IMG/VR virus record: IMGVR_UViG_3300048918_000090
Coordinates: 1 to 26,387 of that record
Source of the DNA: a virus
DNA length: 26,387 nt
Reading direction: 5' to 3' (one strand)
Part shown: piece after piece, positions 8,891 to 18,326 of the stretch
Layout: every line of letters starts with the position of its first letter
Position numbering within the stretch: position 1 is the first letter of the stretch
Translations under genes and position numbers: made by a program
Notes under the pieces: model-generated
The model's input: only the letters and a program-made list of their open reading frames with translations
What the model was told of the DNA's origin: nothing
Databases searched by the model: none

Positions 8891-9091
8891 ATGTTTGAAG
8901 TGCTAGACAAACTCGGCAACGTCATAGCCGTTTTCGGAACCCGAAAGCGCGGTGCAGCGTTCGTGATCGATGAGGCAAAACTGAAAACTGCGCCGGTCTA
9001 CCAGCGCAAGCACAGATCGCACTGGCTGATCCGGTTTGTCTTTCCCCTACTTGTCCCAGTCGACGCGTGGATTGCTGAACGATTCCGATAG
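8891..9091 (+). CDS. Small plus-strand protein inside the late region, 66 aa
   Basis: This is the only plausible gene against the direction of late transcription between 4.7 and 25.3 kb. It starts at ATG with AGGA six bases upstream, and its last 45 bases run antisense to the end of the large ejection protein gene. The N-terminal half is FEVLDKLGNVIAVFGTRKRGAAFVID; the C-terminal half is basic then hydrophobic (HWLIRFVFPLLVPVDAW). It could be membrane-associated. A perfect TATAAT lies at 8850-8855, but no acceptable -35 is seen. The location behind a double terminator is typical of a moron (independently expressed prophage gene). No family recognised; function unknown. Confidence 0.5.
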   Translation: MFEVLDKLGNVIAVFGTRKRGAAFVIDEAKLKTAPVYQRKHRSHWLIRFVFPLLVPVDAWIAERFR

Positions 9092-11953
9092 CTTGTTCGC
9101 CGCGCGACGGTTGACGAACTCAGTAGCCTTGCGCGTGAGCGCCGCGCCCGCCGGGCCAGCTACAGCCGCGCCGAGCGGCCCGAACAGCGCAGAGGCAGCG
9201 CCGGTCGTTGCAGCAGTCGGCGCCCATATCACGGCTTTCTGGAGCAGGTTGTGCCCCTGCACCGCGGCGCCAGGGTATGCGGTCGGCTTCTGCAGCACGT
9301 GCCCGGCATCGTTGAGCGTGCGAAAGCGGCTCATTTCTGCATCATCAAACAGCAGGCCCATGCGCGTGCGCTGGTCGTTTAGCTGCTTCGTCACCTTGGC
9401 AGCGTTCCACTCCGCACCCTGGCCGGCCTTGTTCACGGAATCAGCGAATACGCCCTTCATCTCCGCAAGCGCCTGCTGAGCAGCCGGCTGGAGCGGCTCC
9501 GGGACACCCTTCAGCGTCTCGACGATATGCCGCAGTTGGCCTACTGGCATAGAAGTGATCTTCTGGCCGACCTTCTCGTCCGGCACCATCTGATTGATCC
9601 CGTTCGGGCCTTCCTCGTTTAGCAGCGACGCAATGCCTTTCGGGTTGTCCAGCACGTTCTTGCGCTCGGCATGCAGCGCGCGAGCTTGTGCATAAATATC
9701 GTCGCCTGCCGACTTTGCGACGTCGGTATCGAGCATCTCCTTGATCTTGCCGATGAGTCCGGAGTTCTGCGGCGACCACTGACCGTTGATGTACTGGCGC
9801 ACACCTTCGGCCTGCGTCGCCGTCATCGGGTTGAACGTTCCATCGGCATTGCGGATGCCCTGCTCTTTCAGATAGGCATTGATGCCGCGACCAAGAGCAC
9901 CGTTTTCCGACTTGCCGGCGAAGTTCGACCGGGTGTCCATCATCGTCTTGAACGCATCCGCATCGATACCGGCGACGCCGGCCGCGCGCTGGTCGGCCGC
10001 CTGGTAGATGCTCTTCACCGCGTTGTCGTAGTAATCGTTCAAGCCCTGCAATGGCTGACGGATGATCTGGCCAACCTCTTCAGGCGACGCACCGACCGCG
10101 CCCGTGTCCTGCGCAATCTGCTGAGAGTATCCATGGAGCGCAGTCCGCTCCTTGTCGAACTGAGCGCGCAGCACTTCGCCTTGGGGCGTGTCCGATTTCG
10201 ATAGCTGGTACTCGTTGCCGGCCTCGAATTTGTCGCCGGAGATCGCGCTCGGACGCGTTTGATCAAGACCGACCTCGCGCATCAGGTCGAGGTTCTTCTG
10301 CTGCTGATCAGGCGCGAGCTGCGATTTGACGGTGGTCGGCGTCGAGTCATCGAAGCGCGGCACTTCGACAGGTGCCGGCGGAGGCGCAACCGGCACCGCA
10401 GTGCTCGCATCATTCGCTGCCGCGCCGCCACCAACAACCTGCGTCTGAGGCGCTTGCGGAAGGTCGGGCCGGCCGCCAGATGCATCATTGACCGCTGCCC
10501 GGTTAATGCCGACAGCATCGTTCGCCACCGGCGCGCGTGCAATATCAGCGGCCGGCATAGGAGCGACCTTCGGCTGATCGGGTTTGAGAATCGCCGACAG
10601 GTCATTGGCGGCAGGCGATACCGGCAACTGAGCGATGCCCGATTGAGGCAGCCCCTGTGGCACCGGGCCAACGCCGCGATTCGCAAGTTCAACGCTGCCC
10701 GGCGTGGGTGCGGGAACGTCAGGTTTGCCGATGGCCTTGATGAGCCCATTGGCGCGGCCCGCGAGTTCGGGCGCGATGATCTGTGCGGTGGCGCCCGGAG
10801 CCACATCATTGATCGTCGCCATCAGCGGCGACTGGCCTTGCACGAAGTTCTGCTGGTAGGCGTTCGTCAGCGTCTTGACAGGGGCGCTGTTCGTGATCGC
10901 GTCCAATGCGTTGCTCGCCACGCGGCCGACAGACGCGTTGACCTGCTGGCCACTGGCCGTCTGCGGGTGATACGTCAGCGCGTTCTGGACGCTCTGGCCG
11001 ATCTGCTGCGCGCGGTCGAACGAAACACCGGGCAATGCAGCGGCGCCGACTCGCGCAATCGTGCCGATTGGCGCAGCGATAGCTCCTGTGGCGAGCGTGG
11101 CGATAGGTTCGAGCGCAGCGAGAGGATCGATCGTTGATCCGAATTCGTTGGCAAGCTGCACGCGGGCCGCGTCCGCCGGTGCCGGGCTCGCCGGTTGTGC
11201 TGCCTTCGCTGGCTGTGCCGGCTGCGTCCCCGTCTTCGGCGCATCCTTTGCCGACAAAACACTATTCGCCATCGCGAGCAGCGGGTCTTCAGCGGCCTGC
11301 GCGGGTTGCGCCGATACCGCAGGAGCGGCGGGCGTCGTCGAAGCAGCTGTAGAGCCTGCCATGACGCCATGCGCCATATCCAGCAATGGATCGCCGGTCG
11401 ACGCAGCCGGTGCTGCCGTGGGCGCCGACTGCGGTTTTGCTTGCGGCATGATCTGTTGTCCTGTGGCCGAGATAACGGGCGCGCCCATCTGCTGCGGGCT
11501 GAGTTCGGCGGCGTTCGCGCTGCCCGAGAGAACTGACGCAATCGCGTCCCCGAACTTCCTCACCATTCCGACCGCGCTCGACAGCTTGTTGGCATAGCCG
11601 GAGTCTTCGGCATAGCCACCCTTGGCAAGTGCATTGCCGTACGCAGAGGCATCAGAGCCAGCGCCGACCGCGCCCTGATACCGGCGCGCGATCAGGCTCG
11701 CAAAGTCGTTGCCGAAGTCTTGCGGAGACGCATATGCGCGGTACTGGTCATTCGATCCCGTCTGGTTGTCCGTCGCGGCCACGCCCGGCCCCTTGATGTT
11801 GCCGAGGTTGTTCGTGCCCGGCACGACCGACTTGCCCCAGCCAGTCTCGAGCCCCCACTGCCCGAGCAGGACGTCAGGCGCGACGCCGATCTGCTGGCCG
11901 ACGCTTGCCGCGACCGGCGCGTACTGGGCGATGAACCCCTGAACGTTCGGCAT
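9047..11953 (-). CDS. DNA ejection protein with N-terminal glucosaminidase domain (gp16 position)
   Basis: This 968-aa protein starts at the ATG in a TGATG overlap with the upstream stop; a longer frame upstream overlaps the previous gene. Residues about 10-140 form a FlgJ-type glucosaminidase domain, with APDVLLGQWGLETGWG containing the probable catalytic Glu36, then NNLGNIKG and a KGGYAEDSGYANK segment. Residues about 145-300 are Ala/Pro/Gln-rich low complexity. The remainder has long helical regions and a Gly/Ala-rich hydrophobic patch near the C-terminus (TGAASALFGPLGAAVAGPAG), as expected for a protein expelled into the cell envelope. It occupies the place of P22 gp16, which lacks this enzyme domain. 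It likely digests peptidoglycan locally so that DNA can cross the periplasm. Confidence 0.8.
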   Translation of the reverse strand: MPNVQGFIAQYAPVAASVGQQIGVAPDVLLGQWGLETGWGKSVVPGTNNLGNIKGPGVAATDNQTGSNDQYRAYASPQDFGNDFASLIARRYQGAVGAGSDASAYGNALAKGGYAEDSGYANKLSSAVGMVRKFGDAIASVLSGSANAAELSPQQMGAPVISATGQQIMPQAKPQSAPTAAPAASTGDPLLDMAHGVMAGSTAASTTPAAPAVSAQPAQAAEDPLLAMANSVLSAKDAPKTGTQPAQPAKAAQPASPAPADAARVQLANEFGSTIDPLAALEPIATLATGAIAAPIGTIARVGAAALPGVSFDRAQQIGQSVQNALTYHPQTASGQQVNASVGRVASNALDAITNSAPVKTLTNAYQQNFVQGQSPLMATINDVAPGATAQIIAPELAGRANGLIKAIGKPDVPAPTPGSVELANRGVGPVPQGLPQSGIAQLPVSPAANDLSAILKPDQPKVAPMPAADIARAPVANDAVGINRAAVNDASGGRPDLPQAPQTQVVGGGAAANDASTAVPVAPPPAPVEVPRFDDSTPTTVKSQLAPDQQQKNLDLMREVGLDQTRPSAISGDKFEAGNEYQLSKSDTPQGEVLRAQFDKERTALHGYSQQIAQDTGAVGASPEEVGQIIRQPLQGLNDYYDNAVKSIYQAADQRAAGVAGIDADAFKTMMDTRSNFAGKSENGALGRGINAYLKEQGIRNADGTFNPMTATQAEGVRQYINGQWSPQNSGLIGKIKEMLDTDVAKSAGDDIYAQARALHAERKNVLDNPKGIASLLNEEGPNGINQMVPDEKVGQKITSMPVGQLRHIVETLKGVPEPLQPAAQQALAEMKGVFADSVNKAGQGAEWNAAKVTKQLNDQRTRMGLLFDDAEMSRFRTLNDAGHVLQKPTAYPGAAVQGHNLLQKAVIWAPTAATTGAASALFGPLGAAVAGPAGAALTRKATEFVNRRAANKLSESFSNPRVDWDK

Positions 11954-13422
11954 CAGAATGCCCCGAGCGCCTTCATGGCCTGATAGTCCTTCGTCCACTG
12001 CTGAAGCTTGCCTTCAGCCTTCAGTTTCTGCATGGCGGCCTGTTGCGCGGCCGGATCGCCGAGCGAACGGACATATGACACGTCGGGGTTAAACGACTGG
12101 TTCCATTTGTTCTCGAACTGCGGCAGTGCACTCGTGTTATTGCCGTTCTGCGCGAGGAAGTTCGTTGTCGCATTTGCGCGGTCGAGCACAGCCTGCTGCA
12201 AGCCCTTCACGTGCTGGATCGATTCGAGCAGCGCCGGCGCGTTCATGTTCGCCGGATCGGGCTGCCCAGCCTTTGCCGCGGCAAGCCGTGAATCGCTGCC
12301 CGACAGGCCGAGCGACGAAGCGGCCTGGTCGGCAGCACTGTTCAGGTAGTTGGTGAGCAGCTGATTGTTCTTGACCGCATCCGAGCCAGCCTGAATACCG
12401 AACGTGTTGAGCAGCGCGGGAACGTTGAGCGCCGCGCCTGCGCCCTTGCCCGCGATCGTGCTTTTCAGGTTGTCGGCCGCAAGGTCATAGGTCTGCATGA
12501 GCGGTTTTGCTTGGCTCGCGGCCTGCTGAAGGTTGCTGTAACGCGTGCCGGCCGCATCCGCGACGCCCTGTGCACCGACCGGCGGAGCAGCAGAGAACCC
12601 GCCGCCCGGAAGCTGGCCGGGAATCGATGGCGCAGTAGGCTGGCCGGTGGCAGGTTGTGCGCTCTGAGCGCCGGCAAACTGGCCCTTCGTTATCATCGTC
12701 GGCTGACCGTTCGCGTTGACCGTGACCGGACTCGCCGCGTCGGATGGCGACAGGCCGTTCTGCACCGTGTAGCCGACCGTGCCGACGCCGCCGCCGGCCG
12801 CCATCGGGTTCTGATTGACCGCGACCGTGGCCGGCCCCGTGTTGATCTGGGCGTATTGCGGCAGCATCGCGTGCAATTGCGTCTCGCCGCTCAGCGCCGA
12901 CATATAGTGCTGCGACACCCACTGGCGAAGCTGCTGCGGATCCTGAGGCATCGATTGCAGTTCAGCCTGGTACACCTGCGGCGTGATCGCGCCAGCCTGC
13001 AATTGCGTCGTGGCAAATGACTGCACATCTTGCGGCGACAGGTCGGGCTTTGTCAGCAGGCTCCCGAGCCCTTGACGAAGACCACTTTGCGCCTTGATCG
13101 ACTGGTCGAGTTGGCCGGTCTGCAACGTCTGTTGCTGCTGCTTCTGCGTATTAATGCCTTGAATCACCTGAGGCAGGTTATATGCGGCAGCCGGATCCTG
13201 GCTGAGAATGCCTACCAGCTTGTTGTTATCGACCTGGCCGGTTGTCGGGTCGGTCGCTTGCTGATAAGCGGCAGACGTCGCGCGGTTTGCGTCGAGCTGC
13301 TGTTGCTGCGCGAGGCCGCTCGCATTGAGGGCGCGGAACTGAGCAATAGACAGGGCCTGCTGCAATGGATTGAAGGGCTTCGGGGCGTTCGCATTGAGAG
13401 CGATTGACGGGTCGATGGGCAT
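11953..13422 (-). CDS. DNA ejection protein, gp20 position, 489 aa
   Basis: This Gln/Ala-rich, mostly helical protein has an N-terminal stretch NAPKPFNPLQQALSIAQFRALNAS followed by Gln-rich coils. A low-complexity middle is rich in Gly, Pro, Ala and Gln (about residues 200-290), and a helical C-terminal third ends KDYQAMKALGAF. The three-gene series (gp7-like, this gene, the large muralytic protein) matches the P22 order 7-20-16 of proteins carried in the head and ejected with DNA. Sequence similarity to P22 gp20 cannot be judged by eye, so the name rests on position, composition and size (P22 gp20 is of similar length). It starts at ATG after AGGGGAAAG and overlaps the next gene by TGATG. 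Confidence 0.65.
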   Translation of the reverse strand: MPIDPSIALNANAPKPFNPLQQALSIAQFRALNASGLAQQQQLDANRATSAAYQQATDPTTGQVDNNKLVGILSQDPAAAYNLPQVIQGINTQKQQQQTLQTGQLDQSIKAQSGLRQGLGSLLTKPDLSPQDVQSFATTQLQAGAITPQVYQAELQSMPQDPQQLRQWVSQHYMSALSGETQLHAMLPQYAQINTGPATVAVNQNPMAAGGGVGTVGYTVQNGLSPSDAASPVTVNANGQPTMITKGQFAGAQSAQPATGQPTAPSIPGQLPGGGFSAAPPVGAQGVADAAGTRYSNLQQAASQAKPLMQTYDLAADNLKSTIAGKGAGAALNVPALLNTFGIQAGSDAVKNNQLLTNYLNSAADQAASSLGLSGSDSRLAAAKAGQPDPANMNAPALLESIQHVKGLQQAVLDRANATTNFLAQNGNNTSALPQFENKWNQSFNPDVSYVRSLGDPAAQQAAMQKLKAEGKLQQWTKDYQAMKALGAF

Positions 13423-13435
13423 TTACTTTCCCCTA

Positions 13436-14200
13436 TTACACTGCAAAGCCATTGGTGCCTTGGCCGGTAGAGTTTGCAAATGGGTCAACTACCCCACCGC
13501 CACCGCCTGCCGCATTGTTAGTTAGCAAGCCGGCGGTCAAAGCATTGCTGCCGATGCCATTCAAGCCATTGCTGATTGCGTTTGCCGAGCCGATTGTTCC
13601 AGCTGCTGAAGCATTCGCGCCGCTCGTCAAGGTATTCGCAATATTCCCCGCGGTCTGCGCGCCAAGCGCGCCAAGCCCAGAAGCCGCATTCTGTCCGCTT
13701 CCAACGATGCCGGCGAGGCGATTCACGTTGCTCGACGCATTGCCGTAATTCGTATTGAAGGTGGACAGCGCGCGATTGAATACGTCGTTGTAGGTCGAAT
13801 CGGCAAGTCCCGTCGCATACGATGATGCGCCTTTGAGCGCGGCACCGGAGCTACCCAGACCGCGCGCGGCCGCGCTGTTCTGAACCGATTTCAAGCCCTG
13901 ATTGAGCGTGAACTGATAGCCGGGCGTGGCCTGCGCCTGCGCTTCGGTTGGCGCACCGAACTGCTGATTGAAAATCGGGTTGTTCAAAGCGCTCTGCAGC
14001 GCGTTGATGTTGTTCGAACCCAACTGCATGAAGGGCGCCAGATTGGCCTGCGTCTGGTTGAACTGGTCATTCTGCAGATGCGCTGCGTCTTCGGCGGCCT
14101 GCGCCTGCGTGTTGGCAGCACTCTTCGACGCGCTCGAACTGATGGTGCTCGATGCCACCCCACCGACGATTGCTGCGCCTGCTACTGCTGCTGCGACCAT
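13436..14200 (-). CDS. DNA ejection protein, gp7 / p32 type, 254 aa
   Basis: It begins with a hydrophobic Ala/Gly segment (VAAAVAGAAIVGGVAS) and a helical Ser/Ala/Gln part. It then carries FMQLGSNNINAL and ATPGYQFTLNQGLKSVQNSAAARGLGSSGAAL, the recognisable core of the phage DNA transfer protein family (p32/gp7-like), followed by Asn/Ser/Gly-rich repeats. The hydrophobic start resembles membrane-inserting ejection proteins. It is first in the three-gene ejection block. Its RBS (GGGGAGG) lies across the end of the acetyltransferase gene. Confidence 0.75.
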   Translation of the reverse strand: MVAAAVAGAAIVGGVASSTISSSASKSAANTQAQAAEDAAHLQNDQFNQTQANLAPFMQLGSNNINALQSALNNPIFNQQFGAPTEAQAQATPGYQFTLNQGLKSVQNSAAARGLGSSGAALKGASSYATGLADSTYNDVFNRALSTFNTNYGNASSNVNRLAGIVGSGQNAASGLGALGAQTAGNIANTLTSGANASAAGTIGSANAISNGLNGIGSNALTAGLLTNNAAGGGGGVVDPFANSTGQGTNGFAV

Positions 14201-14203
14201 GAT

Positions 14204-14665
14204 TTAATCCTCCCCGAGCCAACGTTCATACGTGGTCTCGACGGGCGAAAAGCCGAGAAATTTGAATAGCGCCGAGGCATCGTGAGCAACCTTGCTGCCG
14301 ACAGCCCATCGACGTACACCGCGGCGTTTCAGTTCTTTCTCAACGAACCGAAACATGCGAATGCCCGTCATGCCGGTGCGGCGGTCAGGTTTCACGAAGA
14401 AAATGTCAGGTGAACAGGTGAGACACGACCGGTAATGCAGGCCTGGTGCGATGAAACATACGAAGTAGGCGACGATTTCGCCCTGCTCGCGACCGATCAC
14501 CATCATGAGCGAGCCATCTGCCTCGCGAGCGCGGTACGCCTCGACGACAGGATCTAGCGGCACACCGTGATCCTTGTGGGTCGAGATTTCGCCGTAATGC
14601 GCGCACAGAAGTGGAAGCAGTTCGTCATATACGGACGAGAACGGCTCAATCGTGAAAGTGATCAT
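14204..14665 (-). CDS. GNAT-family N-acetyltransferase
   Basis: This 153-aa protein has the GNAT fold pattern. It starts with a beta-alpha segment (FSSVYDELLPLLCAHYGEI), then a strand pair (LMMVIGREQGEIVAYFVCFI). The acetyl-CoA loop motif A follows (PDRRTGMTGIRMFRFVEKELKRRGV, the R/Q-x-x-G-x-G/A region), and motif B is near ALFKFLGFSPVETTY. It transfers an acetyl group from acetyl-CoA to an unknown amine. It overlaps the hydroxylase gene by ATGA, making a two-gene modification cassette between the tail-completion and ejection genes. Small GNAT genes recur at this site in related phages by my recollection, and the substrate could be a virion protein or a host protein. The fold is confident; the substrate is unknown. 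Confidence 0.8.
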   Translation of the reverse strand: MITFTIEPFSSVYDELLPLLCAHYGEISTHKDHGVPLDPVVEAYRAREADGSLMMVIGREQGEIVAYFVCFIAPGLHYRSCLTCSPDIFFVKPDRRTGMTGIRMFRFVEKELKRRGVRRWAVGSKVAHDASALFKFLGFSPVETTYERWLGED

Positions 14666-15243
14666 CGCGAAGTCCTGATATCGACGACCATCGACACGCG
14701 CTCGTCTGCGCTGTTGTTGATGACCTCATGAACCTGGCTGTTGTCGAACCAGAAGCATTCGCCGGTCAGCATGTTGATCTGCTCATCCCCGGCCTTCAGA
14801 ATGGCGCCGGGCAGGCCATGCAGCACGATGTGAAAGCGCGTGTAGTAGCGCGTCTGCTCGGGTGTGTCGGAATGCGCAAAGATACGGCCGCCGGACACCA
14901 CCTTGTTGATCAACACGCGCCCAAGACGCTCGCCGCCGACGCGCGCCATCAGGTTCATAACGAGTGGACGCGCCTCGTGCAGCACCCTGTACGCCGGATA
15001 GTCGATTGCCTCGTATTGGTCATACCCGGCAAGCTGGTTTGCCTTGTAGGCCTCGATCTGAGCCTCGGTCAGGCCTTCGACCTTCTCCGGGAAACGGAGC
15101 ATGATCGTTTCCGTCTCACCAAACGGGCCTTGCGGGTAGTGGCGCAGGAACGTGTCCTCTTTCCAAAGATCAGGCCGGCGTCGGATTGCCAGCATCAGCG
15201 GATTGACATCGACGCCGTTGGCGAGGAAATGGAAATTCTTCAT
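14662..15243 (-). CDS. Aspartyl/asparaginyl beta-hydroxylase-like 2-oxoglutarate dioxygenase
   Basis: This 193-aa protein has the full Fe(II)/2-oxoglutarate signature: His124-x-Asp126 (FAHSDTPE) as the first two iron ligands, YYTRFHIVLHGLPG as the core strand, CFWFDNSQVHEV with the second His162, and then N-x5-R with Arg172 to hold 2-oxoglutarate. The spacing H-x3-N-x5-R-x5-D matches the Asp_Arg_Hydrox family. Enzymes of the family hydroxylate Asp/Asn (or Pro/Arg) side chains, using O2 and 2-oxoglutarate. The first 70 residues (PDLWKEDTFLRHYPQGPFGETETIML) are typical of phage-borne members. It is coupled to the GNAT gene. All key residues are present, so it should be active; the target is unknown. 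Confidence 0.82.
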   Translation of the reverse strand: MKNFHFLANGVDVNPLMLAIRRRPDLWKEDTFLRHYPQGPFGETETIMLRFPEKVEGLTEAQIEAYKANQLAGYDQYEAIDYPAYRVLHEARPLVMNLMARVGGERLGRVLINKVVSGGRIFAHSDTPEQTRYYTRFHIVLHGLPGAILKAGDEQINMLTGECFWFDNSQVHEVINNSADERVSMVVDIRTSR

Positions 15244-15585
15244 TTAGCTCCCGCTCGTCTCGTACGCGCCGCCAGCGATAGTCACTGCGGCACCGGTCGC
15301 CGCGAGAGCCTGAAGCGTCATGCCCTGCGACAGTTGCAGGCCAATTGCCTGAGGCGGCACATACGTCTGCCCGGCGGCCAGCGAGAAAGCAGACAGGATC
15401 GCGTTTGCTGCACCAGCGGTGCCGCCGCTCGGTACGCGGTACAGCGTGACCGCCACGGGGCTCGCAGACGTGTTGGTCAGCGACAGATTGTTGATGGTCG
15501 ACGTCGTTCCGTTGGGCGCCGTGTAATAGGTCGCCGCACCGGTGGTGAGTTGAGCCGATGGAATGACAACCGGAATTCGCTGCAT
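15244..15585 (-). CDS. Small beta-rich structural protein, 113 aa
   Basis: The protein is Thr/Ala/Ser/Gly-rich with repeated strand-turn pattern (TGAATYYTAPNGTTSTINNLSLTNTSASPVAVTLYRVPSG) and no charged helices. It looks like an immunoglobulin-like or jelly-roll small structural protein, as found in head decorations and fibre tips. Its neighbour (15590-15889) has a similar character, so the two may be paired virion proteins. The RBS GAGG is visible before the ATG, and the stop abuts the hydroxylase start (TAAATG). Position among tail-completion genes agrees with a virion role. No named family can be assigned. Confidence 0.6.
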   Translation of the reverse strand: MQRIPVVIPSAQLTTGAATYYTAPNGTTSTINNLSLTNTSASPVAVTLYRVPSGGTAGAANAILSAFSLAAGQTYVPPQAIGLQLSQGMTLQALAATGAAVTIAGGAYETSGS

Positions 15586-15589
15586 CGCG

Positions 15590-15889
15590 TTACCTCGGGA
15601 TCACGGTAATAGTTGGGGTGGTCAGATACGTCAGCGTCAACGTATCCCCGGCATTCAGTTCAAACATCTGCCCACCGGAAAGAAGTCCGAGCGCCAGCGA
15701 AGTGGGGCCACGTCCATATGCCGCAGCGGTGACCGTTCCGCCCGTCACATACAGCGCAACACGAGCGGTCGCACGATAAACAAACGGGGATCCGGTAGGC
15801 GTTACGCTGTATGGCGCCTGAGCCGCACCACTGGTCTGCCCTGTTTGTGGGAAAACCATTTCGCTTAGCACATCGTTTGACGTCGCCAT
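15590..15889 (-). CDS. Small beta-rich structural protein, 99 aa
   Basis: It starts MATSNDVLSEMVFPQTG and continues with short strands separated by Gly/Pro (SPFVYRATARVALYVTGGTVTAAAYGRG), then GQMFELNAGDTLTLTYLTTPTITVIPR. The last part reads like a beta-sandwich edge ('N-A-G-D-T-L-T-L-T-Y'), common in phage fibre or decoration proteins. It lies between the 100-aa and 113-aa genes, all three tightly packed, where P22 encodes its tail needle and gp14. No coiled-coil needle region is seen, so it is not gp26-like. Function unknown, probably virion-associated. Confidence 0.55.
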   Translation of the reverse strand: MATSNDVLSEMVFPQTGQTSGAAQAPYSVTPTGSPFVYRATARVALYVTGGTVTAAAYGRGPTSLALGLLSGGQMFELNAGDTLTLTYLTTPTITVIPR

Positions 15890-16192
15890 TTACACCCCTG
15901 CGAAAGTCATCTCTGTCATGCTGCCGCGCTGGCCTTGCGCAGCAACAAGAGTCATCAGTTGTTCCAGGGCGATCAGGATCGACTGCGCATCCACGGGCGT
16001 GATCTGGGGCGAAACCGTCTCGATCGCGAATACATCGTCCAGCGTCAATGACGGAGCGGGACCGCTGCCACTTCTGCCCGTGCGCTGGAACAGCGATAGC
16101 AGGAACGCCCACCAAACCTGCGTAATTCGCCCCGATGCGTCCAGAAACGGCACGCCGGGGTTGGGCATGTTCGCGTTTGTTGCGTCGCTCAT
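15890..16192 (-). CDS. Conserved podophage protein of unknown function, 100 aa
   Basis: The N-terminus NPGVPFLDASGRITQVWWAFLLSLFQRTG is a pattern I recall from many tailed phages: a short P-F-x-D/N-x-x-G-R motif, then an aromatic helix WWAFLLSLF, and R-T-G. A Gly/Ser linker and an acidic helical C-terminal half with hydrophobic repeats (QSILIALEQLMTLVAAQ) follow. It might sit at the head-tail neck or on a fibre. It overlaps the gp10-like gene by ATGA and abuts the next gene by TAAATG. The role is unknown; association with tail assembly is inferred from neighbours. Confidence 0.6.
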   Translation of the reverse strand: MSDATNANMPNPGVPFLDASGRITQVWWAFLLSLFQRTGRSGSGPAPSLTLDDVFAIETVSPQITPVDAQSILIALEQLMTLVAAQGQRGSMTEMTFAGV

Positions 16193-17613
16193 GTGCGTGC
16201 CCTCGAAACATCAACCCATGCGCCGTTCAGCGCGGTCTTGACCGGTGCCGACCATGACAGCTCGAACACGCGGTCGCGCGCGTAACCGAGCCGCTGGAAC
16301 TGGATCGACGTCAGGTATTCGCCGACCTTGCCAAGTGAGCCCTGAACCCAGTTGCCCCAACTTCGGCCGCGGTCGTCGCTCCAGCGCAGGCGAATTTCAG
16401 GCGCAGCCGAATCGTCCGGATATCCGTCGCCGACTTCCATGTCTGCGATGAACTGGCGGAACATCACGCGGTTGCCATCGGCGCCAAGGATGTGCGGGAA
16501 GCCGCGGACATACTCGATCGTCACGCCGTTATCGGTGAACGCGTTCAGGTCGAGTTGATAGACCTGCCCGGTTTCCCAGTCGCCGACCAGGCAACGCCCC
16601 TGATTGAACGAATAGCAGTTGGCGCGGTGCCGGCTGAACGATCCGTCTGCCTCGAGATACGCGCGCTGATGCCATTGCGACGTGACGACATCGAAGCACC
16701 ACGTTGCATTCGCAGTCGGAAACGTCAGGAAATAGAATGCATGCCCGTTTTGCAGGTATGAGAAGCCGATCGCATCGTCGATGCGCTCATACGTGGCAAT
16801 TTCCTGCTCGATGGCGTGCGTCGAGATGCGCTCGGCCGAATAGTTGCGGCCGGCAAACACAACGCCCTGCCCCTGCAGATCGCGCCCGAGCCAGAACAGC
16901 GCGAGATCGATCTTGGCGACCGAATGCTTTGCCGCGCAGCCGTGCTCGATGAATACGCCGGGCATGCGACCGAACGTGAAATCCGAGGCGCCTGTGTTGT
17001 ACCAGACCTCGGTAGTCAGCGCGCCGAACAGCCAGATTTCCCGGTGCATCACCGCGAGCGTGACCAGCTTGTCCGGATAGGTCGATTTCGACGCGATGTC
17101 GAGCGGATCAAAGCCCGTGCTGTTCGACAGTCCGATGTAAAACTGCTGCGTGTCGGGCCGGTTGAAGATGAAGAACGTATCGACGAAATCGACCTTATCG
17201 GCACCGAGAAAAGACGGATCAGTGACCGCTGACAGCACATTCGTGGTCAGATTGACCGTGAAACCCGACACGCTGCCATCTACGATGAACATGTCGAGGC
17301 CGTTATCGACCATCGACACCGGGCCGGAATCCGTCGTCAGCGAGCCGAGCTGCGTGTATGTCTCGTCATCCGCGACCGCATAAATCGCATCGCCCACGAC
17401 CTCATACCGGTTGCCATTGCTCGCCGTGTAGATGCCGCGGCTTTCGCCCGGAACAGGCGGCGTCGAGACAAGCGTCAGGCCCGGCGTCGGGTAATACGTG
17501 AACGGACACGGGGCATCCTGCGGGTTCTGCTCGCCGTACAGGTTCACGCTGCGCTGGGCGTTCGCAATGACGCTCTGCGCCTGATACGCGCCGCTTGTGA
17601 GTGGGACACGCAT
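16189..17613 (-). CDS. P22 gp10-like packaged-DNA stabilisation / tail hub protein
   Basis: The 474-aa length is nearly that of P22 gp10 (472 aa), and it directly follows a gp4-like gene as in P22. It starts RVPLTSGAYQAQSVIANAQRSVNLYGEQNPQ, a recognisable opening for this family (small basic start, R-x-x-N-L-Y-x-E). The rest is a beta-rich propeller-like sequence with many Trp/Tyr/Gly turns (LVTLAVMHREIWLFGALTTEVWYNTG, AFYFLTFPTANATWCFD). gp10 forms the hexameric hub between gp4 and the needle and spikes and prevents DNA loss. It is coupled to both neighbours: TGATG upstream, ATGA downstream. The assignment is strong from opening sequence, length and order. Confidence 0.82.
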   Translation of the reverse strand: MRVPLTSGAYQAQSVIANAQRSVNLYGEQNPQDAPCPFTYYPTPGLTLVSTPPVPGESRGIYTASNGNRYEVVGDAIYAVADDETYTQLGSLTTDSGPVSMVDNGLDMFIVDGSVSGFTVNLTTNVLSAVTDPSFLGADKVDFVDTFFIFNRPDTQQFYIGLSNSTGFDPLDIASKSTYPDKLVTLAVMHREIWLFGALTTEVWYNTGASDFTFGRMPGVFIEHGCAAKHSVAKIDLALFWLGRDLQGQGVVFAGRNYSAERISTHAIEQEIATYERIDDAIGFSYLQNGHAFYFLTFPTANATWCFDVVTSQWHQRAYLEADGSFSRHRANCYSFNQGRCLVGDWETGQVYQLDLNAFTDNGVTIEYVRGFPHILGADGNRVMFRQFIADMEVGDGYPDDSAAPEIRLRWSDDRGRSWGNWVQGSLGKVGEYLTSIQFQRLGYARDRVFELSWSAPVKTALNGAWVDVSRART

Positions 17614-18326
17614 CAGTACGGCCTATCCGAGTAGATATTCCAGCGCTGCTTCGTGCCGAGCCCGCGCGGCATGCTCATCGTCTGCAGCTGCGAATTCATC
17701 CGCTTGACGACGCGCTTGGCGTTCATCGCCAATGCCTTCAGATCGCTGCTGATCGGCAGCGTATAGGACGGCGCCAGGTAGCACGCGAGGTTGTATCGGA
17801 TCGCCGCGGTGTATTCCGGCGGAAGCGTCACCACAGTGGCAGCCGTGGCGAACTGCGGCAGAACGTCCATCGTCACGATGTGCAACTCGAACGAGCTGTT
17901 CGGCACCGGGTACATGAACAGCGTGCCAAGGGGGTATGACGGGTCGTAGAACGCGAAATCCGGGAACGACACGAGCGCCTTGAGCGCGATGCGCGAATAG
18001 TCCTCGCGCGCTTCGATCATGCGCACCGGATAGTCGATAGGCGTTGCGCTGCCAGCATTCAGGCGCGCGTATGCCGCATTGATCTTGATCGGACGCGGGA
18101 TGTTGAAATTGCCACCGGGTCCAACGGTGTACGACTGCGCACCGGTCGACGTGATCCCCGTGTCGATCAGGTGAAACACGCTCAGCCGCTCGCCCTGCCA
18201 CTGGCCCATCATCATGTTGAGCGTGGCGAGCGCGTCGGCCGTATCCTCAGCCGAGATAGCCTGACCGATGCCGAGCGCGCCGATGTCCTTCAGCGCGAGC
18301 GTGATCAGGTCAACGGCGGTCGTCAC
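17613..18326 (-). CDS. P22 gp4-like head-tail joining (tail accessory) protein
   Basis: This 237-aa protein has an N-terminal helical part (DLITLALKDIGALGIGQAISAEDTADALATLNMMMGQWQ), characteristic of gp4/gp6-like connector proteins that bind under the portal. It continues with a beta part (YTVGPGGNFNIPRPIKINAAYAR, typical of these adaptor proteins), and helices near the C-terminus (AAIRYNLACYLAPSY, AKRVVKRMNSQL). P22 gp4 is smaller (166 aa), so this is an extended member like those of other podophages. It starts by overlapping the 110-aa gene by ATGA and is followed by the gp10-like gene with TGATG. P22 gp4 was reported to have muramidase activity; no such motif is obvious here. Confidence 0.78.
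   Translation of the reverse strand: MTTAVDLITLALKDIGALGIGQAISAEDTADALATLNMMMGQWQGERLSVFHLIDTGITSTGAQSYTVGPGGNFNIPRPIKINAAYARLNAGSATPIDYPVRMIEAREDYSRIALKALVSFPDFAFYDPSYPLGTLFMYPVPNSSFELHIVTMDVLPQFATAATVVTLPPEYTAAIRYNLACYLAPSYTLPISSDLKALAMNAKRVVKRMNSQLQTMSMPRGLGTKQRWNIYSDRPY

Follow-up and report, generated by a model that had tools for sequence, protein, structure and literature searches.

The stretch of DNA analysed here (the window) comprises positions 1 to 26,387 (26,387 nt) of the IMG/VR virus record IMGVR_UViG_3300048918_000090. Its minus strand encodes a P22-like virion block, in which genes for terminase, portal, scaffold, major head protein, a gp4-like adaptor and the gp10-like protein Hc3 are followed by three small ORFs, a putative hydroxylase, a putative GNAT, a gp7-like protein and proteins of 489 and 983 amino acids. 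The part of the block around the two predicted enzymes is organised as follows.

17613-18326, minus strand: tail accessory protein or head-tail adaptor, P22 gp4-like (phrog_637 E=2e-12, phrog_12985 E=1.8e-42; PF11650 below cut-off)
16189-17613, minus strand: head closure Hc3, P22 gp10-like (phrog_578 E=2e-115)
15890-16192, minus strand: small virion-block ORF, 100 aa; no significant family match in Pfam or PHROG; kept in many relatives
15590-15889, minus strand: small virion-block ORF, 99 aa; no family match in Pfam or PHROG; patchy in relatives
15244-15585, minus strand: small virion-block ORF, 113 aa (phrog_20100 E=4.7e-6); kept in most relatives
14662-15243, minus strand: predicted 2-oxoglutarate/Fe(II)-dependent hydroxylase, Asp_Arg_Hydrox, 193 aa (PF05118 E=1.3e-12)
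14662-14665, minus strand: ATGA stop/start overlap of the hydroxylase and GNAT genes, read from the sequence
14204-14665, minus strand: GNAT-fold acetyltransferase-like protein, 153 aa (phrog_1249 'acetyltransferase' E=8.5e-12)
13436-14200, minus strand: P22 gp7-like DNA-ejection protein, 254 aa (phrog_598 E=2.3e-35)
11953-13422, minus strand: second presumed ejection protein, gp20 position, 489 aa; placed by position and kept in relatives
9047-11998, minus strand: third presumed ejection protein, gp16 position, with an N-terminal glucosaminidase, 983 aa (PF01832 E=7e-20, phrog_3513)

The initial annotation had placed two ORFs, overlapping by ATGA, between tail-completion and ejection proteins. 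Both ORFs were confirmed on the minus strand at 14204-15243, the junction reading ...CGATGATCACT with an overlap of four bases, and the site was confirmed by the neighbours, Hc3 (phrog_578) on one side and the gp7-like protein (phrog_598) on the other. The interval between Hc3 and the hydroxylase gene is made up of the three small ORFs (113, 99 and 100 aa). Further downstream, the 489-aa protein (11953-13422) had no family match in Pfam and PHROG profile searches, and the glucosaminidase domain (PF01832) at the start of the 983-aa protein (9047-11998) probably serves the passage through peptidoglycan during injection. A search for a promoter or terminator belonging to the hydroxylase-GNAT pair gave no such sites above chance, and the possibility of a moron-style unit with its own promoter or terminator was rejected for this reason. 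From this result, together with the common strand and the close packing of the genes, we infer that the pair is co-expressed with the virion genes. An integrase-like gene at 1731-2795 of the window suggests that the source phage may be temperate.

The hydroxylase scored 48.2 bits against PF05118, for which the curated cut-off is 22.6 (E=1.3e-12). Its metal triad and 2-oxoglutarate-binding residue are H124, D126, H172 and R182, invariant in 75/75 relatives; His124 and Asp126 had been named correctly before, whereas the positions first given for the other two (His162 and Arg172) were ten too low, residue 162 being a glutamate and residue 172 the distal histidine. The AlphaFold model (pLDDT 91.7) has the double-stranded beta-helix fold, and its best PDB match in Foldseek was L-proline cis-4-hydroxylase (4p7w, E 1.6e-9), followed by 7v4f and human AspH; a nucleoside-antibiotic hydroxylase was also among the fold matches. 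Comparison of the family profile with solved structures gave a similar picture (L-proline cis-4-hydroxylase 4e-9; proline 3-hydroxylase and human AspH approximately 1e-5). By profile, residues and fold the protein belongs to the Asp_Arg_Hydrox 2OG/Fe(II) oxygenases, and hydroxylation is the predicted reaction. Because the PF05118-type family spans protein as well as small-molecule hydroxylases, the substrate is not fixed by family membership.

The product of the second gene scored 17.3 bits against the Pfam GNAT profile, below the cut-off of 20.7, which a relative (L051) passes at 35.1 bits; an NCBIfam search returned nothing for either protein. Its AlphaFold model (pLDDT 95.3) has the GNAT fold, with PDB matches that include the RimI-annotated 7n1l and AAC(3) at TM 0.73-0.77. 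The protein, weak in Pfam and clear in PHROG, is unambiguously a GNAT by the fold of the model, and acetyl transfer is predicted for it. D87, which we take to be the general-base position on beta-4, and K125 are invariant (73/73). In the acetyl-CoA loop, R/Q-x-x-G-x-G/A, R96 and G/A101 are each found in 72/73 sequences and the first glycine (position 99) in just 9/73, and since this glycine is missing in most members, catalysis by the GNAT is not certain. In one relative (L162:4524-5055) the GNAT match is broken across two frames in a frameshift-like manner, with the hydroxylase frame intact.

The structural likenesses of the two proteins could be read in favour of a small-molecule substrate, be it an amino acid, a polyamine, a nucleoside or an antibiotic, that is modified for an auxiliary or protective purpose: in fold and profile the hydroxylase is nearest to L-proline cis-4-hydroxylase and to the nucleoside-antibiotic hydroxylase, and aminoglycoside and polyamine acetyltransferases are among the fold matches of the GNAT. 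We consider this distinctly unlikely, taking into account that adjacency to an ejection gene is kept across divergent lineages, that SET-domain proteins, which are modifiers of proteins, share the slot (see below), and that the neighbourhood contains no transporter or pathway gene.

When the window hydroxylase served as query, the GNAT gene came next in 44/44 of the relatives obtained, and among the GNAT relatives the hydroxylase gene lay directly upstream in 70/71, the remaining one being cut by a contig end. The pair persists down to approximately 46% hydroxylase identity and was found in contigs of Achromobacter, Massilia, Paraburkholderia, Cupriavidus, Janthinobacterium and Sphingopyxis; in the relatives, too, the GNAT gene lies directly 5' of the gp7-like ejection gene. 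Pseudomonas phage PfAn1 likewise has the pair at this position. In a freshwater lineage unrelated to this one, that of Limnohabitans phage DC33 and its kin, an overlapping pair was also present in 32/33 loci; it lies there between terL and portal and is followed by a small protein whose N-terminus is hydrophobic and which contains a Q/A-rich stretch. The -4 spacing was seen in 49/68 dereplicated pairs and in nearly all DC33-like loci; a class of pairs that appeared to be far apart was an artefact of stop-to-stop ORFs, the genes being adjacent in nearly all by stop-to-stop spacing. Both genes are under purifying selection, with a median dN/dS of 0.069 for the hydroxylase and of 0.094 for the GNAT (values up to 1.4 in a few GNAT comparisons probably reflect ungapped pairing of unequal lengths, and the median alone was used). 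Judged by the 44/44 relatives and by dN/dS medians of 0.07 and 0.09, the pairing is more than local chance. All close relatives, the six genera named above and the DC33-like lineage beside terL thus support the earlier proposal that the enzymes form a conserved pair linked to virion genes. In a Hyphomicrobiales MAG contig (L237:5468-6988) a prophage remnant next to a GGDEF/EAL-like gene of the host consists of a gp7-like fragment followed by an intact-reading pair.

The position directly upstream of the ejection gene (the slot) was surveyed with the phrog_598 gene as anchor. In 398 genomes of Burkholderiaceae, the family of Paraburkholderia rhynchosiae, 22 loci were obtained, and their slots held the pair (5), a second GNAT family (5), a cupin-like protein (5), a cupin-SET fusion (2), a protein judged DUF2824/GNAT-like by eye (1), a structural-looking protein (3) and an occupant that was left unassigned (1). 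The second GNAT family is homologous to the window GNAT (hhalign E 9.5e-16), and the fusion consists of the same cupin joined to a SET domain (PF00856, E 2e-9). A second survey, of 299 genomes from the Sphingopyxis family, yielded 16 distinct loci: the pair in three (two of them duplicate-like), a short GNAT-like family in six and by eye in one more, a DUF2824 match in one, an occupant without assignment in one and none in four. The assignment of the short family as GNAT is weak, its Pfam acetyltransferase matches being below cut-off. In a scan of viral contigs the cupin-SET fusion lay directly upstream of an ejection-type gene in 7/8 cases, the eighth being a cupin alone. Fusions in prophages and viral contigs (L306:2223-3074, minus strand; L312:2256-3188, minus strand; L338-L344) carry the SET motifs NHS and VDY. 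The slot occupant of prophage L315 has a DUF2824 match (4.8e-5) together with a weak Acetyltransf_4 match. On this evidence the slot repeatedly holds predicted enzymes of modifying type, namely other GNATs, cupins and SET methyltransferase fusions.

In P22 the slot directly before gene 7 is occupied by gene 14 (DUF2824, 'head morphogenesis'), and in T7 the corresponding slot, between gp12 and the ejection protein gp14, is occupied by gene 13. Comparison with the window GNAT gave an hhalign probability of 0.1% for T7 gp13, which was not among the best 50 fold matches listed, and of 0.08% for P22 gp14, and the window GNAT had no DUF2824 match. As the profile comparison does not show homology, the likeness is positional, and identification of the GNAT with T7 gp13 or with P22 gp14 by homology was rejected. 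The shared slot nevertheless allows the GNAT to be seen as a mainly non-catalytic assembly or chaperone factor for the ejection proteins, standing in the place of T7 gp13 and P22 gp14, with the hydroxylase as a separate addition. The annotations of P22 gene 14 (head morphogenesis) and T7 gene 13 (probable scaffold in Pfam), a T7-like record stating that gp13 is required for gp6.7 incorporation, and the degenerate acetyl-CoA loop would all fit such a role. Against it, D87 and K125 are invariant and R96 and G/A101 nearly so, as would fit an active site that has been kept; the profile comparison gives no support for homology to either factor; and the catalytic hydroxylase and the SET fusions would be left unexplained. 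A mainly non-catalytic role therefore seems rather unlikely to us.

At larger distances the two genes also occur separately, something not seen among the near relatives. GNAT without hydroxylase is common in Vibrio and oyster-associated Zobellviridae and their relatives, where it sits always between the tail/closure genes and the next internal protein. At least three lineages have the hydroxylase but no GNAT, and in the L172-like, L003/L281 and L331 loci it still neighbours ejection genes. In MW202665/L281 the lone hydroxylase gene is directly upstream of a phrog_21132 ejection gene, and in L331 it lies between Hc3 and the ejection gene. In the L172/L180/L181/L186-L188 group a cupin replaces the GNAT before the phrog_598 ejection gene, which follows immediately in L172, L180, L181 and L188 and after an interval in L186 and L187. 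The cupin of L172 (4552-4902), L180, L181 and L188 has 115-116 aa, and its gene either overlaps the stop of the hydroxylase or directly adjoins it.

Identity matrices over 73 genomes gave a correlation of r=0.87 between Hc3 and gp7, as opposed to r=0.42 between hydroxylase and GNAT. The lower value, compared with that of the structural neighbours, indicates that partners were swapped between lineages. Thus L118 and L008 share 89% in the hydroxylase and 43% in the GNAT, and in L118, L119 and L045 the hydroxylase is 83-89% identical to window-type copies and the GNAT just 41-51%, a clear case of partner exchange by recombination. Tight co-evolution of the two proteins as a complex was rejected on the value of r=0.42 (73 genomes). 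Independent swapping speaks against an obligate complex; more in keeping with it are two enzymes that share a reason to sit at this place. A joint pathway, as raised by the initial annotation, is weakened both by these correlations and by the occurrence of each gene alone. Since slot contents are exchanged between lineages, the pair might be thought a dispensable passenger hitchhiking in a recombination hot spot; with the low dN/dS, the invariant catalytic residues and the retention of the pair even in the degraded prophage remnant L237, this is very improbable.

Independent exchange of the hydroxylase and the GNAT would also fit separate targets, and these could be sought in the host, where the enzymes would act on a protein late in infection. 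A precedent is Rac of phiKMV-like phages, a predicted GNAT that acts indirectly on RNA polymerase, cleavage of the host RNA polymerase alpha subunit being dependent on residues of its binding pocket (PMC7552054); the position of the pair would then give just late expression. Rac adjoins the phage RNA polymerase gene, however, and not the ejection slot, and a host target would need no constant ejection-gene adjacency, yet several GNAT families, SET and cupin proteins show it. We regard action on a host protein as unlikely.

When unrelated families of acetyl-, hydroxyl- and methyl-type recur beside the same gene, the product of that gene is most simply read as their target, and in view of the slot pattern modification of virion proteins appears more likely. 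The reading that we prefer, with a probability of roughly 40 per cent, is that the predicted hydroxylase and GNAT form a late enzyme module that acts on the phage's own ejection proteins and tunes them. In this scheme the two genes, lying immediately before those for the ejection proteins in P22-like short-tailed phages, would constitute a late-expressed module; they would be translated together, and their targets would be the newly made ejection proteins encoded just downstream, with the gp7-like protein as a proposed substrate. The hydroxylase would hydroxylate one or more side chains and the GNAT would acetylate an amine of these proteins, the two acting independently rather than as an obligate complex. 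Such modification could tune the solubility, packaging or release of the membrane-active, coiled-coil ejection proteins. Late co-expression, catalytic activity and an ejection protein as the substrate are points that we infer. Other observations run against the ejection protein as target: the DC33-like pair lies between terL and portal with no annotated ejection gene adjoining, the best structural matches of the hydroxylase include hydroxylases of free amino acids and nucleosides, and the divergence of the hydroxylase correlates weakly with that of the ejection protein (r=0.37), where closely matched enzyme and substrate might be expected to diverge together.

A more specific form of the acetylation step was considered and abandoned. 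The gp7-like ejection protein of the window starts with MVAAAVAGAA, and MVAAA-like starts were found in nearly all GNAT-bearing phages, in contrast to the M-P-F or M-P-W starts of hydroxylase-only phages (M-P-W or M-P-F downstream of the lone hydroxylase in L003, L281, L331 and L172-type loci). This contrast at first suggested N-terminal acetylation. The control failed, as MVAAA or MVVAA starts occur without GNAT in L307, L308 and L310, and Met-Pro starts occur with GNAT-like neighbours in L321, L323, L325 and L328; a role of the GNAT as N-alpha-acetyltransferase of the MVAAA start was rejected.

The annotations of P22 gp14 and T7 gp13 speak of morphogenesis or scaffolding, and the presence of catalytic families (2OG hydroxylase, GNAT, SET methyltransferase) in the same slot raises the testable idea of post-translational modification of ejection proteins before packaging. 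In a wider and more tentative form, short-tailed phages may carry upstream of their ejection genes an interchangeable module for acetyl, hydroxyl or methyl transfer dedicated to modifying the DNA-injection proteins; the pair described here would be one edition of it, and P22 gp14 and T7 gp13 may be members. If true, virion maturation would have a new layer, and protein hydroxylation would, in a rare instance, be dedicated to phage particles. GNATs beside ejection genes were known already. For the pairing with a hydroxylase and for the range of enzymes in the slot we found no report in open-licence papers, a literature whose silence is not proof of absence.

The hydroxylase shares with the PF05118 Asp/Asn beta-hydroxylases (human AspH, proline cis-4- and 3-hydroxylases) the family match, the DSBH fold, the HxD...H motif and the arginine; it differs from human AspH and its family in being without a TPR domain and in its place in a phage late operon. 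Asparaginyl beta-hydroxylases are known in cyanomyoviruses (PMC3037559). Earlier mentions of GNAT genes concern RCA phages and Alteromonas phage ZP6, and in cobaviruses a GNAT beside the internal virion proteins was proposed to correspond to T7 gp13 (PMC6775973). The phrog_1249 GNATs of cobaviruses, Zobellviridae and related short-tailed phages are of similar length and lie, as in the window, between tail/closure genes and the ejection gene; unlike the window, phages of the cobavirus/Zobellviridae type are without the hydroxylase partner. With T7 gp13 (PF11090, 'probable scaffold protein') and P22 gp14 (DUF2824) the window GNAT shares only its position: the gene for the former immediately precedes that of the first ejection protein, and the gene for the latter immediately precedes the gp7-type ejection gene. 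The closest counterpart of the pair is in phage DC33, where the aspartyl/asparaginyl beta-hydroxylase ORF8 (PMC12195039) is homologous to the window hydroxylase and is followed, as in the window, by a homologous, overlapping GNAT; unlike the window pair, ORF8 lies between terL and portal. That paper annotates the hydroxylase and counts it as an auxiliary gene, and the passages located there make no mention of the adjoining GNAT (PMC12195039). The DC33 record (L002, PQ492659.1) says Inoviridae, yet the 39-kb genome has terL and a T7-type portal/connector, and the taxonomy looks wrong. Rac of the phiKMV-like phages is a phage GNAT with evidence of an active-site-dependent effect (PMC7552054); compared by location, it adjoins the RNA polymerase gene and acts on host transcription, whereas the pair of the window occupies the ejection slot.
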